In this document: one piece after another, positions 11,098-44,836 of the stretch | Layout: the number at the start of each line of letters is the position of its first letter | Numbering within the stretch: position 1 is the stretch's first letter | DNA from: Rhodoluna sp. | Lineage (GTDB): Bacteria; Actinomycetota; Actinomycetes; Actinomycetales; Microbacteriaceae | Reading direction: 5' to 3' | Length of the DNA: 64,000 nt | Assembly (NCBI RefSeq): GCF_024641065.1 | Contig: NZ_JAHEDV010000003.1 | Location: 1-64,000 of the forward strand | The notes under the pieces: generated by a model | Database searches by the model: none | The model's input: only the letters and a program-made list of their open reading frames with translations | Told to the model about the DNA's origin: nothing | Translations under genes and position numbers: made by a program

Positions 11098-12453
11098 CTA
11101 GTTTTTCATATCCATGAAGCGTGAATACTGACCCTGGAAGGCAACCACGATGGTGCCGGTAGGACCGTTTCTTTGCTTGGCAAGAATGAGGTCAGCCTCA
11201 CCTGCGCGCGGATGTTCACGCTCGCCAATAGCTTCACGGTGAAGCAAAATAACCACGTCGGCATCTTGCTCAAGTGAGCCAGACTCACGCAATTGTGAGA
11301 TTTCTGGCTTTTTGTCTTTGGTTTGCTCTGAATTTCGGTTTAGCTGTGAAATCGCAATTACTGGCACATTCAGTTCTTTTGCCAAAAGCTTTAGCGCGCG
11401 TGAGAACTCAGAAACCTCTTGCTGACGTGACTCAACCTTTTTTCCCGAGGTCATCAGCTGGATGTAGTCGATGACAATCATCTTCAATGGCACTCGCTGA
11501 GTTAAACGGCGACATTTTGCGCGAATTTCGACCAGTGTCATGTTTGGGCTGTCATCGATGTACAAAGGAGCATCGTTGATCTGGCCGCGAACGGCAGCAA
11601 GGCGAGTCCAGTCGCTGTCGGCAATTGAGCCTTTTCGCATGTTCTGAAGCGGAATTTGTGATTCAGCCGAGAGCATGCGCATTGCGATTTCGGCTCGGCC
11701 CATTTCGAGCGAGAAAAAGACCGTCGCTCGGTTGTGGCGAACTGCTGCATTGCGGGCAAAGTCGAGAGCCAGGGTTGATTTACCAACTGCAGGGCGGGCA
11801 GCCAGAATAATTAGCTGACCTCCGTGAAGACCGTGGGTCATTTCATCAAGTTCGGCAAAACCGGTAGGCACACCAACCATGTCGCCACCACGGCTTTGAG
11901 CTTGCTCAATTTCATGGATGGCAGCTTCGATCGAGGTGTTCAGGTCAACGATGTCTTCTTTGGTGGCACCACGGGTTACTGCATAAACATCTGACTGGGC
12001 CTGGTTTACGAGGTCGATTACTTCACCCTCGTTGGCATAACCCGATTGTGCGATTTTGGTACCAACTTCTACCAGTCGGCGAAGAGTCGCCTTCTCGGCA
12101 ACAATCTGTGCATAGAAACCAGCGTTCGCAGCGGTTGGAACGATTGAAGTAAGGGTGTGTAGATAGTCGGCGCCGCCAGCTTTGACCAGGTTGCCTGATT
12201 TTGTGAGTTCGTCAGTGACTGTAATTACGTCGGTTGGCTCGCCCTTGGCAAACAAAGCCAAAATTGCCGAGAAGATTACCTCGTGCTTTGGGGCATAGAA
12301 GTCTTGGCCGTTGACAACTTCTTGAACCTCGGCAACAGCTTCGCCTGAAAGCAGCATGCCGCCCAGTGCACTCTGTTCTGCCAACATGTCGTTTGGCAAC
12401 ATGCGCTCATTGCCACGACTCGGATCAACCGGTGGCGGTGACAAAAGTGTCAT
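11098..12453 (-). CDS. dnaB: Replicative DNA helicase
   Basis: Hexameric 5'-3' helicase that unwinds DNA at the replication fork, 451 residues, normal length and with no intein. An N-terminal DnaG-interacting domain (about 20-120, LAEQSALGGMLLS) precedes a RecA-like ATPase with Walker A ARPAVGKST and Walker B VIDYIQLM. AGGAG lies 8 nt before the ATG. The promoter region (12454-12836) contains a dense cluster of DnaA boxes, suggesting DnaA may influence its expression. Two membrane-protein genes follow closely. Confidence 0.95.
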   Translation of the reverse strand: MTLLSPPPVDPSRGNERMLPNDMLAEQSALGGMLLSGEAVAEVQEVVNGQDFYAPKHEVIFSAILALFAKGEPTDVITVTDELTKSGNLVKAGGADYLHTLTSIVPTAANAGFYAQIVAEKATLRRLVEVGTKIAQSGYANEGEVIDLVNQAQSDVYAVTRGATKEDIVDLNTSIEAAIHEIEQAQSRGGDMVGVPTGFAELDEMTHGLHGGQLIILAARPAVGKSTLALDFARNAAVRHNRATVFFSLEMGRAEIAMRMLSAESQIPLQNMRKGSIADSDWTRLAAVRGQINDAPLYIDDSPNMTLVEIRAKCRRLTQRVPLKMIVIDYIQLMTSGKKVESRQQEVSEFSRALKLLAKELNVPVIAISQLNRNSEQTKDKKPEISQLRESGSLEQDADVVILLHREAIGEREHPRAGEADLILAKQRNGPTGTIVVAFQGQYSRFMDMKN

Positions 12454-12836
12454 TAAATACTCCTAATTGCTGGCCTTTTTCAGACCTATACCTGTCTAGC
12501 ATCGCCTACCGACAGCGAATCTAAAAACTGGGTTGTGAACAGTTTTGTGGATAACTACCTCGCCACGCCCTAATAACTTTGGGCAAAGTGTTGATAACCC
12601 TGTGCATAATATGTGGAAATACCCTCGAAACCAAATGAAACAAAGGGATTCTTGCGTGTGGATAACTATTCTGGTTAAACCCTAAACCATAACCTTAGGG
12701 TTGGGGATAACCGCAGGTAAACCTGCTAGACACGCCAGTGTTGGAGAGTTATCCACCGTTTATCCACAGGCTGTGGCGTGTTTTATGGCGTGTCGCGAAC
12801 ATTCTATTTTGACCACAAACCCAAAGGGGCAGGAAC
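12454..12836. other. Gene-free region with DnaA-box cluster between rplI and dnaB
   Basis: No reading frame of note. Four exact matches to TTATNCACA (either strand) lie at 12546-12554, 12601-12609, 12657-12665 and 12760-12768. One-mismatch sites lie at 12589-12597, 12702-12710 and 12749-12757. An 8-bp inverted repeat AACCCTAA/TTAGGGTT (12678-12702) sits inside. The dnaB promoter must be here. Possible roles are DnaA titration, dnaB control or a secondary initiation element; none is proven by sequence. Confidence 0.7.
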
Positions 12837-12868
12837 AAAAAAAGGGCCGCCCGAAGGCGACCCTCTTT
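12837..12868 (-). terminator. Terminator of the rpsF-ssb-rpsR-rplI operon
   Basis: A GC-rich stem (GGGTCGCC with GGGCGGCCC-type pairing, one or two mismatches, TTCG loop on the minus strand) is followed by a run of seven T on the minus strand, 12 nt after the rplI stop. Confidence 0.85.
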
Positions 12869-12880
12869 GATAGCTAGAAG

Positions 12881-13333
12881 TTACTTCTTGCCAACAACCT
12901 GAAGGGTGATGGTAGCTACCACGTCGCCGTGTAGACGAACGGTAGCTAGGTGCTCACCTGCGTTGCGGATCGGAGCAACGAATGCAACCTTGCGCTTGTC
13001 TAGTTCACCTAGGCCGGCAGCTGAAACAGCAGCTACGACATCAGAAACCTTGACAGAACCGAATAGACGGCCACCAACGCCAGCCTTGACAACCAGGCGA
13101 ACAGCCTTGGCCTCAAGAGCAGCCTTTAGTGACTGTGCTTCTTCAACAGTTGCAATTGCGCGTGCGTCGCGAGCAGCCTTGATTGACTCAACCTGCTTCT
13201 CGCCACCCTTGGTCCATAGAACTGCGAAACCGCGTGGAAGAAGGTAGTTACGGGCGTAGCCGTTCTTAACCTCTACAACGTCGCCTGCAGAACCTAGACC
13301 TGAGACCTCATTGGTCAGAATTAGCTTTGACAT
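12881..13333 (-). CDS. rplI: 50S ribosomal protein L9
   Basis: Large-subunit protein L9, 150 residues, normal length. The N-terminal domain carries the family signature ([20 protein letters not shown]), followed by the long connecting helix and the C-terminal 23S rRNA-binding domain. It is the last gene of rpsF-ssb-rpsR-rplI, 11 nt after rpsR, with a ribosome-binding site AAGGAG before the ATG and a terminator after the stop. Confidence 0.97.
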
Positions 13334-22501: not shown

Positions 22502-23479
22502 TTAGTGGTTGGTTTCGATGCCCAATTCGCGCAAAATGCGGTTCAAATCGCCCACGGTTGCAAAATCGATGACCAATTGGCCCTTCTTTTTGCCCAAAAC
22601 AATGCTGACTTTGGTGTCTAGTCGATCACCAACGCGAACAGCCAAGTCTTTCAAAGTGTCTTGACGACCACCTGGAGTAATCGAGGCCTTACCTGGCTTT
22701 GGGGTAGCGGGCTTGTCGAGAGCTACCAGTTCTTCAAGCGAGCGAACCGAGAGGCCCTCGTTGATTACCTTATTAGCAAAATACTCCATGCGGTTTGCGT
22801 CAACCACGCTCAAAATAGCGCGAGCGTGACCCGCGCTGAGCACGCCTGCTGCAACTTTTTGCTGAACTGCAACTGGCAGTTTGAGCAAACGAATGGTGTT
22901 GGTGATCTGTGGGCGTGAGCGACCGATCTTTTCAGCAAGCTGATCTTGGGTGATGCCAAAATCACTCAATAGTTGCTGATAAGCGCTGGCCTCTTCAAGT
23001 GCGTTCAAGTTTGCGCGGTGAATGTTCTCGAGCAACGCGTCTCGCAACATATTGTCGTCAGCGGTTTCACGAATTACCGCTGGGATGTGGGTCTTGCCGG
23101 CCTCTTTTGAAGCACGAAGGCGACGTTCACCCATGATCAATTCATAAGTAGGCTTGCCATCTTGCTCGCCAAGCGGGCGTACCACAATCGGCTGCAGCAC
23201 ACCAAATTCACGAACAGAGTGAACCAGCTCAGCGAACGCATCTGGTTCGAAAACCGCACGTGGCTGTTGAGGGTTAGGAATAATCGAGTTCAGTGCGAGG
23301 TGTCCGAAGCTGGCTCCAGGAACAGCAACAAGGCCAGAATCCGCGCCATTACTGGCCTCTGGGGTGGTTGATCCAGAGTTTGCGCCAAAGAAAACATCAA
23401 TTGGGCGATCCGTTGCCGGTGATGCGCTCGGAATCAAGGCACCAATTCCGCGGCCAAGGCCAACTTTCTTATCTGCCAT
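22502..23479 (-). CDS. parB: Chromosome partitioning protein ParB
   Basis: Binds parS and spreads as a CTP-dependent clamp near the origin, 325 residues. N-terminal ParA-interacting segment KKVGLGRGIGALIP; ParB/CTPase core with PNPQQPRAVFEPD and IMGERRLRASKEAG; HTH with DQLAEKIGRSRPQITNTIRL; C-terminal dimerisation domain. The ATG overlaps the end of parA by 11 nt. Good parS sites lie at 24404, 25277 and 19809. Confidence 0.96.
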   Translation of the reverse strand: MADKKVGLGRGIGALIPSASPATDRPIDVFFGANSGSTTPEASNGADSGLVAVPGASFGHLALNSIIPNPQQPRAVFEPDAFAELVHSVREFGVLQPIVVRPLGEQDGKPTYELIMGERRLRASKEAGKTHIPAVIRETADDNMLRDALLENIHRANLNALEEASAYQQLLSDFGITQDQLAEKIGRSRPQITNTIRLLKLPVAVQQKVAAGVLSAGHARAILSVVDANRMEYFANKVINEGLSVRSLEELVALDKPATPKPGKASITPGGRQDTLKDLAVRVGDRLDTKVSIVLGKKKGQLVIDFATVGDLNRILRELGIETNH

Positions 23480-24572: not shown

Positions 24573-25211
24573 TCAGACTAGCGTAGTTCGAACGACTCGG
24601 GTCGGTTCTTCTAGTTGCTGTGCGCCAGTGAGAACAATTTCAATACCGGCGATCTTCAATTTCTTCATCAGACCACGCGAGTCTTCAATTTCTTCTGCGG
24701 CCTTAGAGCCCTTTAGTGCAATGATTTCGCCCCCGTGACGGGTTAGAGGAACCGTCATTCGAAGCAATTTAGGCAGAGCGGATACTGCTCGGGCAGTCAC
24801 AATGTCAAAAACCTCGCCAACTTCTTCGGCACGGGCACGCACCACACGCACATTGTCGAGCCCTAGCTCAGCAACCTGCTGTGATAGCCAATTTGAGCGT
24901 CGCTCCATTGGTTCGATTAGGACAAAACTGGCCTGCGGCTGGGCAATTGCCATAGGAATACCTGGCAAACCAGCACCAGAACCCACATCGGCAACACTCG
25001 CACCGGGTGGCACCAACTCGGCGACTACGGCCGAATTCAAGATATGGCGAGTCCACAGCTTGGGCATTTCTCGAGGACCGAGCAATCCAAGCTCGTCGCC
25101 GTCGCGGACCAGAGCTGCGGCATAACCACGCGCCTTGTCGATTCCGGCGCCAAATATTTTGGCTGCCGCGGCTGGCTCGACTTCAGGTGAAAAATCTTGA
25201 GAATCGCTCAT
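24573..25211 (-). CDS. rsmG: 16S rRNA (guanine-N7)-methyltransferase RsmG
   Basis: Methylates G527 of 16S rRNA, 212 residues. SAM-binding motif VADVGSGAGLPGIPMAIAQP and the downstream VTARAVSALPKLLRM are typical. It is separated from jag by a terminator and a perfect parS site, so it probably has its own promoter. The usual actinobacterial order jag-rsmG-parA-parB is kept. Loss of this enzyme is known to give low-level streptomycin resistance; the gene here is intact. Confidence 0.94.
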   Translation of the reverse strand: MSDSQDFSPEVEPAAAAKIFGAGIDKARGYAAALVRDGDELGLLGPREMPKLWTRHILNSAVVAELVPPGASVADVGSGAGLPGIPMAIAQPQASFVLIEPMERRSNWLSQQVAELGLDNVRVVRARAEEVGEVFDIVTARAVSALPKLLRMTVPLTRHGGEIIALKGSKAAEEIEDSRGLMKKLKIAGIEIVLTGAQQLEEPTRVVRTTLV

Positions 25212-25232: not shown

Positions 25233-25263
25233 ACAAAGGGCCGGGGGATACCCGACCCTTTGT
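25233..25263 (-). terminator. Terminator after jag
   Basis: Stem ACAAAGGG..GGG / CCC..CCCTTTGT with a short loop; on the minus strand it is followed by TTTTTC. It ends the rpmH-to-jag transcript before rsmG. Confidence 0.82.
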
Positions 25264-25276
25264 GAATAAACCGGAA

Positions 25277-25302: not shown

Positions 25303-25803
25303 TTACTGTGCTGGCTTGATCACAATGTGACGGTCGCGACCTTCGCCCTCAGATTCTGACACTAGGCCAGCCTCAGAGATGATGTCGTGAACGATCTTGC
25401 GCTCGTATGAAGACATAGGCTTCATCGGCACAGTCTCGCCGGTGTCTTTCACCTTGGCGATTAGCTTGTTGACGATGCGGGTTAGCTCATCTACACGCGC
25501 CTGACGCGAGCCGCCAACATCCAAGATAAGACGGCTAAAGCTAGTGGTTTTCACCTGAACAGCCAGGCGGGTTAGCTCCTGGAGAGCTTCAACGGTCTCA
25601 GGCTCAGAAATCAAGCGCAGGTTGCTGTCTCCGTTAGCGGTTACCTCTAGATAAGCGCGGCCCTGACGAACGTCAATCTCGATGTCGCCATCAAGGTCAA
25701 AGATGTCTAACAGCTCTTCCAGGTAGTCAGCGGCAATCTCGCCCTCTTCTTCAAGAGCCTTTACTGAGTTCTCTTCAGCTGGTTTTAGTTCTTCTGCAGT
25801 CAT
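25303..25803 (-). CDS. jag: KH-R3H RNA-binding protein Jag/KhpB
   Basis: RNA-binding regulator of cell elongation/division in Gram-positive bacteria, 166 residues. An acidic N-terminus (about 1-25), a KH domain (about 30-105) and an R3H domain with MKPMSSYERKIVHDIISE are visible. It lacks the separate Jag-N domain of firmicute proteins, which is the usual actinobacterial form. It starts 5 nt after yidC. Confidence 0.93.
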   Translation of the reverse strand: MTAEELKPAEENSVKALEEEGEIAADYLEELLDIFDLDGDIEIDVRQGRAYLEVTANGDSNLRLISEPETVEALQELTRLAVQVKTTSFSRLILDVGGSRQARVDELTRIVNKLIAKVKDTGETVPMKPMSSYERKIVHDIISEAGLVSESEGEGRDRHIVIKPAQ

Positions 25804-27744: not shown

Positions 27745-27996
27745 GTTTTTCAAGGTGTTTTCAGAAAAAAATCAAAAGTATTTCACAAACTAAGAAAAAA
27801 ACTTAGATTCGACACACCGTCTTAATTTGCTTTTAAGCCACCGCCTTTAGTTGAATCAGTAGTCGAACTAGAAAACAGTTGTGTTTCTAGAAAGTGTGGT
27901 TATCCACATAAAGTGCACCTGGTGGATAACCCTGTGGACAACTGGCTATAGAGTAGTCAATTATTGGTAAAGCGCCGAGGGGAAGGAGAGTGCCGA
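27745..27996. promoter_or_regulatory. rpmH-dnaA intergenic region: dnaA promoter region and DnaA boxes
   Basis: An AT-rich stretch (27745-27840, with several A-runs) is followed by an exact DnaA box TTATCCACA (27900-27908) and one-mismatch sites at 27921-27929 and 27933-27941. The dnaA promoter must lie here (CTATAG near 27946 is a -10 candidate), so DnaA autoregulation is likely. Confidence 0.7.
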
Positions 27997-29430
27997 ATGC
28001 CAGATACTCAAGCAGTCGCCGGACTATGGCACTCACTTACTAACAAGCTAAACGGCGACGATCGCATCACTCCACAGATGCTCGGCTTTTTGAATTTGGT
28101 AGAACCAAAAGGTGTTTTGGGTGAAACCCTGTACATCGAGGTTCCAAACGAACTAACACGCGAAATGGTTCACCTTCGCATGCGTCCTTACATCCTTGAT
28201 GCTTTGGCAAATAACGCTGACTTTGGCGGCCCAACAAACTTTGCAGCAGTGGTCAACCCTGAAATTGAAGCCGCTTTTGAACCTGCAGTCGCCGCGGTTC
28301 CAGAAATCAGTCGCCCACAGGCCATGAACCCACTTGGTTCACCGGTGGTTTTCAACGAGTCGGTTTCTGCCGGCGCATCAAACCCTGGAACTCAGGACTC
28401 TCGCTTGAACCCGAAGTACACCTTCGACAGCTTTGTTACCGGTGGATCAAACCGCTTTGCCCACGCTGCCGCTTTTGCAGTAGCTGAAGTTCCGGCCAAG
28501 GCCTATAACCCTCTATTCATCTATGGAGATTCTGGTCTGGGTAAAACCCACCTGCTTCATGCAATCGGCCACTATGCGCTGAACCTGTATCCAAGAATCA
28601 AGGTTCGCTATGTTTCAAGCGAAGAATTCACCAACGACTTCATCAACGCAATTCAGAACAACCGCACCAGTGCCTTCCAGGCTGAATACCGCGACATTGA
28701 CGTTCTACTGATTGACGACATTCAGTTTCTGCAGGGTAAAGACCAAACCCAAGAAGCGTTCTTCCACACTTTCAACACGCTTCACGATCACAACAAACAG
28801 GTTGTAATCACAAGTGACCTGCCACCAAAGCAGATGACCGGCTTCGAAGATCGAATGCTTTCTCGTTTTGAGTGGGGTCTGATGACCGACATTCAGGCAC
28901 CTGAGCTAGAAACTCGCATCGCGATCCTCCGCAAAAAAGCCGAAAACGACAAGCTACGCGTTGACGACGAAATTCTTGAGTACATGGCAGCTCGCGTATC
29001 TTCAAACATCCGCGAACTCGAAGGCACACTCATCCGTGTAAATGCCTTCGCAGCATTGAACCGTCAAAAGGTTGACATGCAGCTGGTTCAAACTGTTTTG
29101 AAAGACATTGTTCCGGTTGGCTCTGATCAAGTGATTGCCCCGATTGAAATCATCAATGCTGTGGCCACCTATTACAAAATCACCCCAGATGACCTTTATG
29201 GCTCATCTCGTATTGCTGCTATTGCTCTTGCTCGCCAGATTGCTATGTATATCTGCCGCGAACAGACCAACCTTTCACTCCCTAAAATTGGCCAGCTGTT
29301 TGGCGGAAGAGATCACACCACCGTGATGTATGCCCAACGCAAAATTGCCGAATTTATGAGCGAACGACGCTATGTCTATAACCAGGTCACCGAGATCATC
29401 TCAAGAATAAAGGCTGGCTCACGCGGCTAA
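27997..29430 (+). CDS. dnaA: Chromosomal replication initiator protein DnaA
   Basis: Origin-binding AAA+ initiator, 477 residues. Domain I about 1-90, short linker, domain III with Walker [12 protein letters not shown] and Walker [12 protein letters not shown], domain IV with the DnaA-box signature [19 protein letters not shown] 27997 has GGAAGGAGAG 6-8 nt upstream; an in-frame TTG at 27964 would place that site inside the gene. Domain II is short compared with Streptomyces DnaA. Confidence 0.97.
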
Positions 29431-29452
29431 ATGTCTGCAATTTATCGTGACT

Positions 29453-29468
29453 CGTTTCACGTGCCACC
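29453..29468. other. Degenerate parS-like site after dnaA (12/16)
   Basis: CGTTTCACGTGCCACC keeps an intact left half and core but a poor right half. It lies 22 nt after the dnaA stop, next to the origin. ParB binding is uncertain. Confidence 0.35.
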
Positions 29469-29483
29469 TAAAAATAGATCTGC

Positions 29484-29507
29484 AACCACCAGCAATGGTG
29501 GTTTTTC
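29484..29507 (+). terminator. dnaA terminator
   Basis: AACCACC-AGCAAT-GGTGGTT stem followed by TTT, 54 nt after the dnaA stop. Confidence 0.8.
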
Positions 29508-29790
29508 TACATTTTGTTGAAAAATAAACATATGAACATATCTGTGGATAACTGTTGATAACTCTCGGATATCAGTGAACTAAAGCTAAATAGCTTGTGA
29601 CCAGAAAAATTACTACTAACAGGCCAGGTAGTTATCCACAGAATATTCCACAGGTGTATAAACAACTTACATCGATGTGGTTCCGTTGAATCTAAAGCTA
29701 TTAACAGACTTATCCACATTTTCCACAGGGGTTAATAGTGTTGTTTTAAATATTTAAAGATTTAAATAAATCGATAACTCTTTGGGTTTT
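29508..29790. other. Probable replication origin (oriC), dnaA-dnaN intergenic region
   Basis: Exact DnaA boxes at 29543-29551 (minus), 29632-29640 (plus) and 29710-29718 (plus), with one-mismatch sites at 29553-29561 and 29719-29727 and shorter TTCCACA motifs between. An A/T-only-like segment (about 29734-29780, with TTTAAATATTTAAAG) is a candidate unwinding element. Position between dnaA and dnaN is standard for actinobacteria. Confidence 0.88.
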
Positions 29791-29899
29791 CTGAATCTAC
29801 GGCGCATCCCTGAAAAAAACTCATTTTAAGGCCAATCTGTGCCAAGATTAAGCCCTAGAAACCAATGCGCAACTACCTGCGCAGATTCGGGGAAAAGTC
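29791..29899 (+). promoter_or_regulatory. dnaN upstream region
   Basis: About 110 nt without DnaA boxes; it should hold the dnaN promoter (AAGATT or TAGAAA near 29846-29860 are possible -10 elements). GGGGAAAAG precedes the TTG start. Confidence 0.4.
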
Positions 29900-43844: not shown

Positions 43845-44516
43845 TTGAATTTTCTTCGTAATTCATACAGACAAGCGCCGCTAACCACGGCGCTTGTCTT
43901 ATTGAACGTGGTGTTGTGGCTACTTCAGCTGGTTCCTGGGCTTTACCTAACCGACCGCTTGGTATTCACTCCGCTGGCTATGGGTTCTTCTGAGCCATGG
44001 AGAGCCATCACCGCTGGCTTCATTCACAGCCCCGACCTGCCGTTTCACCTGTTGATCAACATGTATTCGGTTTACATCTTTGGCCAGGTGCTTGAGCCGA
44101 TGCTTGGCAAAGTTCGATTTGCCGCGCTTTATCTGATCTCTATTTTTGGCGGATCAGTCGCAGTTATGTTCTTGGCACCTGCCATGACTTTTGTGTATGG
44201 CGCTTCGTCAGCTGTGTTTGGTTTGATGGCGGCATATCTTGTAGTTCTTCGCTCACTTGGCGGCAGCTCACAAGGCATGGTTGGTCTAATTGCACTAAAC
44301 CTTGTTATCGGCTTTATCTTGCCGGGCATCAGCTGGCAGGCGCACGTTGGCGGTCTGCTTGCCGGAGGCGCAGTTGCTTCGGTTTATGCGAACACCCGTG
44401 GCCCAAAGCAGCAAACCGCTCAAAAGATTTCGGTTGTAGTAATCGTCATTATTTTTATTGCGTTGGCGATTTATCGACTGCAACAAATAACTTCCGGGTC
44501 GATGCTGTCGTTCTGA
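43845..44516 (+). CDS. Rhomboid-family intramembrane serine protease
   Basis: 223 residues with about six or seven membrane segments. Catalytic serine in VYGASSAVFGLM (GxSxxxG) and catalytic histidine in WQAHVGGLLAGG are both present; the INMYSVYIFGQVLE loop region fits as well. It starts with TTG 4 nt after the cyclophilin stop. Substrates unknown. The adjacent crgA lies beyond a shared terminator. Confidence 0.9.
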   Translation: MNFLRNSYRQAPLTTALVLLNVVLWLLQLVPGLYLTDRLVFTPLAMGSSEPWRAITAGFIHSPDLPFHLLINMYSVYIFGQVLEPMLGKVRFAALYLISIFGGSVAVMFLAPAMTFVYGASSAVFGLMAAYLVVLRSLGGSSQGMVGLIALNLVIGFILPGISWQAHVGGLLAGGAVASVYANTRGPKQQTAQKISVVVIVIIFIALAIYRLQQITSGSMLSF

Positions 44517-44535
44517 TTTAGCTAAGGCTTAAAAC

Positions 44536-44569
44536 AAATCCGCCCAACCAAAAAGTTGGGCGGATTTTT
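44536..44569. terminator. Bidirectional terminator between rhomboid gene and crgA
   Basis: AAATCCGCCCAAC-CAAAAA-GTTGGGCGGATTT with TT after it; perfect 13-bp stem. Confidence 0.94.
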
Positions 44570-44584
44570 AAATTCACGGCTGAA

Positions 44585-44836
44585 TTACTTCCAGCGGGTT
44601 GCCATCATGAAGCCCACCATCGAGATTCCGAAACCAATCAGAATGTTCCAGTTCTCAAGGTTCCACGGGGTGCCGGCACCTAGAGGAAACTGTGCGCTGG
44701 TCACGTAATAGGTGATGATCCAGACCAGACCCAAAAGCATGAAACCAAACATGGTTGGTTTGAACCATGCAGGGTTGACCTGTTCTTCTCGGCGCTCGGC
44801 GCGAACCTTTGGGGCCTTTAGTTTCTTTTCAGACAT
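44585..44836 (-). CDS. crgA: Cell division protein CrgA
   Basis: 83 residues with a basic N-terminal tail and two membrane segments (about 28-45 and 62-80); NPAWFKPTMFGFMLLGLVWI and NWNILIGFGISMVGFMMATR are family hallmarks. It binds FtsZ and penicillin-binding proteins in actinobacteria. TAGAAT ends 6 nt before the ATG, a near-ideal leaderless promoter. Divergent from the amidotransferase gene by 58 bp. Confidence 0.94.
   Translation of the reverse strand: MSEKKLKAPKVRAERREEQVNPAWFKPTMFGFMLLGLVWIITYYVTSAQFPLGAGTPWNLENWNILIGFGISMVGFMMATRWK

Follow-up and report, generated by a model that had tools for sequence, protein, structure and literature searches.

The gap upstream of dnaB, the replicative DNA helicase gene, in Rhodoluna sp. 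contains an ordered array of DnaA boxes, and we consider it likely, with a probability of roughly three in four, that this array is the upstream regulatory region of dnaB and that it is controlled by DnaA. The boxes are in clear excess over chance directly 5′ of dnaB, they occupy the same place across class Actinomycetes independently of the neighboring gene, and they are mostly oriented toward dnaB with a spacing close to 11 bp. The analysis was carried out on a 64,000-nucleotide stretch of DNA (the window), which starts at position 1 of its contig and was compared with dnaB loci from other genomes.

Box content of the dnaB-rplI gap

The window lies on contig C32 of an assembly of 1.43 Mb (33 contigs, 91% complete). 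In the genome collection, the DnaB proteins closest to that of the window come from Microbacteriaceae and Rhodoluna MAGs, the best two with 90 and 87% identity. Since dnaB and rplI are both encoded on the minus strand, the array in the gap between them (12454 to 12880) is located 5′ of dnaB and 3′ of rplI (Table 1). The terminator-like site that follows rplI suggests that the array probably belongs to dnaB’s own transcription unit. ORFs overlapping the gap were short, the longest having 58 codons’ worth of product (58 aa), and an Rfam scan returned no family at E 0.1 in the gap and one sub-threshold archaeal match inside dnaB; an RNA element or a small gene in the gap was therefore rejected.

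Table 1. Features of the window (positions in the window; dot, no strand assigned)
Feature	Coordinates	Strand	Basis or remark
dnaB, replicative DNA helicase, 451 aa	11098..12453	-	TIGR00665 E 1.6e-152, 508 bits, above cut-off
TGTC-N12-TAGACA, inverted ends; putative promoter core or 5′ leader element	12493..12514	-	alignment
Candidate -10 TAGATT, weak, without a good -35	12518..12523	-	compared with Leucobacter TAnnnT
Array as a whole; its six dnaB-sense boxes approximate an 11.1-bp lattice, with an opposite-strand pair at the far end	12533..12768	-	
DnaA box CTGTTCACA, weak, most dnaB-proximal of the array	12534..12542	-	one mismatch to TTRTNCACA
DnaA box TTATCCACA, exact	12546..12554	-	exact TTATNCACA match
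DnaA box TTATCAACA	12589..12597	-	one mismatch
DnaA box TTATGCACA, exact	12601..12609	-	exact TTATNCACA match
DnaA box TTATCCACA, exact	12657..12665	-	exact TTATNCACA match
DnaA box TTATCCCCA	12702..12710	-	one mismatch
DnaA box TTATCCACC, opposite strand	12749..12757	+	one mismatch
DnaA box TTATCCACA, exact, opposite strand	12760..12768	+	exact TTATNCACA match
Intrinsic-terminator-like site 3′ of rplI	12839..12868	-	13-pair stem, then T-rich tail
rplI, ribosomal protein L9	12881..13333	-	TIGR00158 E 1.1e-33
dnaA, comparison locus	27964..29430	+	TIGR00362 E 1.8e-154
dnaA-dnaN intergenic region, probable oriC	29431..29899	.	three exact TTATNCACA, AT-rich stretch, TAGTAGTAA run

A preliminary description of this DNA had counted four exact TTATNCACA boxes and three one-mismatch boxes in 12546 to 12768, and all of them were found at the positions it gave. 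The densest 250 bp of the window starts at 12533 and contains nine sites with at most one mismatch to TTRTNCACA, four of them exact; two of the nine, at 12533 and 12534, lie on opposite strands and overlap. Beyond the boxes of Table 1, one-mismatch sites also occur on the plus strand at 12533 and 12809. The dnaA-dnaN region, 17 kb away and previously described as comparably dense, is the second densest in the window, with six sites of at most one mismatch (three exact), so the array in fact exceeds it.

Exact TTATNCACA occurs nine times in the window compared to 1.19 expected from dinucleotide shuffles, the largest count in 100 shuffles being 4. When the 290-bp array region was itself shuffled, a mean of 0.65 sites with at most one mismatch to TTRTNCACA was obtained. 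The genome-wide count that the preliminary description had proposed gave 27 exact TTATNCACA boxes in the assembly, four of which are in the array, and the Poisson estimate for four exact boxes in 223 bp anywhere in the assembly is about 8e-8. Three single-contig genomes were used for comparison. In G006, from the same genus, 7 of 64 TTRTNCACA sites lie within 225 bp upstream of dnaB and four in the dnaA-dnaN region; the region upstream of dnaB is the chromosome’s densest box cluster (a Poisson estimate of about 1e-14). In G111, from the same family, the corresponding numbers are 4 of 34, within 199 bp, and three. Box richness is not uniform, since G078, from another family (f23), has only 1 of its 19 sites upstream of dnaB.

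Conservation upstream of dnaB

The closest set comprised the 80 loci returned for DnaB (L001 to L080), in which a box was defined as an exact TTRTNCACA. At least one box was present within 420 bp upstream of dnaB in 79 of them, and in the next two 500-bp bins, which served as a control, boxes were present in 4 of 74 and 0 of 72 loci. The sole locus with no exact box upstream of dnaB was L051 (Microbacteriaceae BACL25), where the array may have been lost or its sites altered. The 23 Rhodoluna/Aquiluna-type loci (L001 to L022 and L024) have two to seven exact boxes each. Among close relatives, the array itself is retained although single boxes change position and are replaced. The boxes are thus kept in close relatives, a point on which the preliminary description had made its proposal depend.

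To cover class Actinomycetes, 98 genomes (97 besides the window’s own) were searched for DnaB, and the upstream DNA of 94 was examined. The first class count omitted 8 of the 97; five were added later, their dnaB start being taken from the profile match as an estimate, whereas G035, G090, and G094 were left out because their listed dnaB match was without the N-terminus. An exact TTRTNCACA was found within 500 bp upstream of dnaB in 72 of 94 loci (69 of 89, plus 3 of the 5 added) and was absent from this interval in 22. In many class members, the number of exact boxes in this interval is only one or two. In the 89 loci, the near bin contained 130 hits, or 2.9 per kb; sites were present in 5 loci at -1000 to -500 and in 2 at -1500 to -1000, and none was found inside dnaB itself (39 kb, 30 loci). 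The reversed motif, used as a control, gave 11 hits in 11 of the 89 near bins, and some sites in these gaps may therefore be due to chance. A phylum search (149 genomes) added 42 further families, for 41 of which one genome each was examined. A box upstream of dnaB was detected in 5 of these 41 genomes from other classes and the reversed motif in 2. Compared to 72 of 94 within the class, this indicates that the trait is mainly one of class Actinomycetes.

That the array could be an artefact of chance or composition had been judged unlikely at the outset, and its probability is now negligible. DnaA boxes have an AT-rich sequence, and there is a mild rise of the reversed motif near dnaB, where it occurs in 11 of 89 loci versus 2 of 89 in the next bin; yet its 11 hits stand against 130 for the motif itself, and both the boxes at 79 of 80 loci and the Poisson estimates for this genome and for G006 contradict a chance origin. 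Conservation already refutes this explanation.

Next, we considered what the boxes are anchored to. Using a profile, rplI was sought within about 1.45 kb upstream of dnaB in the 89 class loci and was found in 30, of which 21 have boxes. Boxes are also present in 48 of the 59 loci where rplI was not found nearby, although in these loci the gene may sit just past about 1.45 kb or escape the profile. Since boxes stay upstream of dnaB with no rplI found nearby, rplI was rejected as their anchor: the box array follows dnaB regardless of the upstream neighbor. The distance between dnaB and dnaA is about 15 to 91 kb in 32 of 32 genomes (with circular closure assumed for genomes whose dnaA sits at the end of a contig), so linkage to dnaB is not fully separable from linkage to the origin region. 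For the same reason, distance from oriC was uninformative as a discriminator between titration of DnaA and regulation of dnaB.

Orientation, spacing, and promoter-like elements

The six dnaB-sense boxes of the window (at 12534, 12546, 12589, 12601, 12657, and 12702) are separated by steps of 12, 43, 12, 56, and 45 bp. In a set of 26 related, non-independent loci (the window, L001 to L024, and L170), distances between dnaB-sense sites with at most two mismatches peaked at 12, 23, 32 to 33, 44 to 45, 55, 67, 78, 89, 100, and 110 to 112 bp. When the sites were restricted to at most one mismatch, 358 distances gave a resultant of 0.78 at a period of 11.1 bp. The window’s own lattice gave a P of 0.0015 at this fixed period, a value that is not independent since the window was part of the set on which the period had been chosen; with the period left free between 10 and 12 bp, P was 0.010. 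In other families of the class, where each distance was counted once per family, the mean cosine over 186 dnaB-sense distances was 0.52 at 11.1 bp and 0.61 at 11.0 bp; the former was reached by 0 of 20,000 uniform draws, which leave shared ancestry among families uncorrected. Outside the window’s family, 83 of 119 exact boxes are oriented toward dnaB. At oriC of 30 genomes (dnaN was located in 28), same-strand distances gave at most 0.38, at 10.75 bp, and boxes face both directions. A weaker near-11-bp spacing thus exists at oriC, and spacing as such is not unique to dnaB.

The comparison with oriC also bears on the earlier proposal that the array is an auxiliary origin of replication. Although the boxes of the array are no less dense than those of the dnaA-dnaN region, the gap has neither an AT-rich unwinding element nor a DnaA-trio: its lowest 50-bp G+C is 0.34 versus 0.16 at dnaA-dnaN, where a 50-bp stretch of 16% G+C starts at 29732, and no run of three TA(A/G/T) triplets occurs in 12454 to 12880, whereas dnaA-dnaN has the TAGTAGTAA run on the minus strand. 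The genes flanking the gap point in the same direction, and no skew switch is seen at 12.6 kb, though skew is weak across the window. An additional origin at this site is thus extremely improbable. The dnaA-dnaN gap looks like an ordinary oriC. It shares exact boxes with the array and has two-way boxes, an AT-rich stretch, and a triplet run, while the array is mainly one-way and has neither of the latter two.

Two other box-containing sites were observed near the origin. Just upstream of dnaA, at 27900 to 27945, there are three sites, two of them exact TTRTNCACA, a placement that would be fitting for DnaA autoregulation at rpmH-dnaA. A lone exact TTATTCACA is located at 25261 to 25269, in the gap between ORFs 24573 to 25211 and 25303 to 25803.

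A standard promoter scan revealed no sigma-70-type promoter in 12300 to 12950 of the window, where the two candidate elements listed in Table 1 were identified. In the window and in 15 of L001 to L024, the TGTC-N12-TAGACA element precedes dnaB by 34 to 79 bp; among the 145 other loci scanned it was present in only 6, and it was therefore rejected as a widely used core promoter. Phasing was analyzed in 60 Microbacteriaceae-type loci with a box (from L023 to L080, plus three class loci). A promoter-like element was found past the last box in 58 of the 60 and was not found in two. In 48 of these 58 loci, the distance from the last box to the -10 element is 30 to 31, 40 to 41, or 51 to 52 bp, classes that differ by about one helical turn and are partly sorted by genus; the other 10 picks (17 or 19 bp) take the box itself as the -35 element and are probably artefacts. 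In other families, a promoter-like pick was obtained in 29 of 55 loci, at 41 to 43, 53, 63, 86 to 87, and 107 to 108 bp, distances that may follow the taxon. These phasing counts come from related species. A protein that works on a promoter from a single helical face would need phasing by helical turns of this kind.

Orientation and phasing also weigh on titration, the other role proposed in the preliminary description. In that case, the array would be an oriC-proximal sink for DnaA, which is duplicated early and blocks re-initiation, and its place before dnaB would be incidental. Clusters in Bacillus subtilis and Streptomyces coelicolor repress untimely initiation, according to a review (PMC5742627), and the array resembles them in being non-coding, dense in boxes, and close to oriC; no cluster in the window is denser, and that of G006 is the densest of its chromosome. 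The turnover of individual boxes within a persisting array would suit a sink as well, and so would the nearness of dnaB to dnaA in all 32 genomes. However, since dnaB itself is located near dnaA, nothing singles titration out. The boxes keep to the 5′ side of dnaB through changes of neighbor (48 of 59 loci with no rplI found nearby), mostly read toward dnaB, and are promoter-phased in relatives; the one or two exact boxes of many class members would make a poor sink; and a published DnaA mutant alters dnaB expression (PMC7738170). What stands of the proposal is the density of the cluster and its proximity to oriC, and we regard titration as the main role of the array as unlikely, though it may accompany the regulation of dnaB.

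Probable DnaA control of dnaB and comparison with known systems

Control of dnaB by DnaA, which the preliminary description had listed among several options, is well supported by the class-wide linkage, the promoter phasing in relatives, and the binding and expression data from mycobacteria. For the Rhodoluna array, we infer the following course of events. DnaA would bind cooperatively to the head-to-tail boxes on one helical face, reading toward the dnaB promoter, and bound DnaA would modulate dnaB transcription, more likely as an activator, judging from one mutant in one genus. The supply of helicase would thereby be coupled to DnaA, in its amount or its state, around the time of initiation. 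Such an arrangement would constitute a feed-forward loop, in which DnaA determines the production of DnaB as well as bringing it to oriC, and would link two proteins that must meet at oriC.

A more specific and tentative version, which we hold to be possible but doubtful, is that the dnaB promoter is class-wide a scaffold for an ordered DnaA filament, made of strong and weak one-directional boxes on an 11-bp lattice and phased with the promoter. If so, it would resemble a single origin arm in its construction, with RNA polymerase rather than an unwinding element as its target, and helicase synthesis would rise sharply with ATP-DnaA. Duplication of the array soon after initiation would then reset the supply of DnaA and helicase, making dnaB part of the initiation clock. 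The ordered array, of which the small-genome Rhodoluna group has an especially rich version, offers a simple test bed for the action of DnaA oligomers on a promoter. The class-wide pattern suggests that DnaA control of dnaB is old and general in Actinomycetes and not peculiar to mycobacteria. It also calls for caution, since a DnaA-box cluster predicted close to oriC is not necessarily an origin or a titration site.

Several known systems can be compared with the array. Like it, E. coli datA and DARS are DnaA-box clusters outside oriC; what they alter is the nucleotide state of DnaA (PMC5742627). The array, a dense and ordered box cluster in a gene gap, could by its appearance be an element of this type that switches DnaA through ATP hydrolysis or ADP release, but a consistent link to dnaB would not be expected of such elements, and we consider this role very improbable. 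The clusters of B. subtilis and S. coelicolor are also non-coding DnaA-box clusters, those of B. subtilis being called oriC-proximal in the same review (PMC5742627). They are defined by their effect on initiation, whereas the array is defined by its sequence. The studies of these clusters are reportedly those of Okumura 2012 and Smulczyk-Krawczyszyn 2006, and the Streptomyces clusters are said to be named H69, H24, and D78. H24 may be the stretch that holds dnaB, in which case the class-wide pattern could already have been reported in part. In the part of the literature that was covered, no published account of the class-wide range and geometry of the boxes upstream of dnaB was found, and PMC7738170 was the sole account found of DnaA “upstream of dnaB,” with subscription literature mostly outside coverage. 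In Caulobacter crescentus, DnaA is also reported to bind upstream of dnaB (reference 40 in PMC7738170), but the organism belongs to a distant phylum and has another type of DnaA box.

Boxes near crgA were observed as well. In G111, a Microbacteriaceae genome, four lie on one strand just 3′ of crgA at 22592, 22603, 22635, and 22647 (L251, G111:C1:22592-22655), spaced by 11, 32, and 12 bp, two of them exact and two with one mismatch. G078 has a weaker, mixed-strand group near crgA (L252, G078:C1:34381-34458), G006 has one weak site in 1.2 kb around the gene, and no exact box was found in the compared crgA region of the window (44250 to 44590). The G111 and G078 boxes look like a counterpart of the Rv0010c-Rv0011c DnaA site of Mycobacterium tuberculosis, which its authors describe as being without obvious correspondence elsewhere (PMC7738170).

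The closest known system is the mycobacterial region upstream of dnaB (the Rv0057 region of M. tuberculosis and its M. smegmatis homolog), which has the same place relative to dnaB and involves the same protein. As reported in PMC7738170, it is one of five DnaA regions defined in vitro in M. tuberculosis and among the five strongest there, and ChIP-seq in M. smegmatis revealed homologs of the same five. The I282T substitution in M. tuberculosis DnaA weakens binding upstream of dnaB and uniquely lowers dnaB expression (PMC7738170). DnaA binding is thus shown in mycobacteria and predicted here, where a box excess is found directly 5′ of dnaB, in a position that is the same class-wide and independent of the neighboring gene. 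We therefore assign the array to a kind of dnaB-upstream DnaA region already known from mycobacteria, to which the present analysis adds the range in the class, the independence of the upstream neighbor, and the ordered, mainly one-directional spacing; within this range, exact boxes are abundant in the Rhodoluna-type array and number one or two at this place in many other class members.
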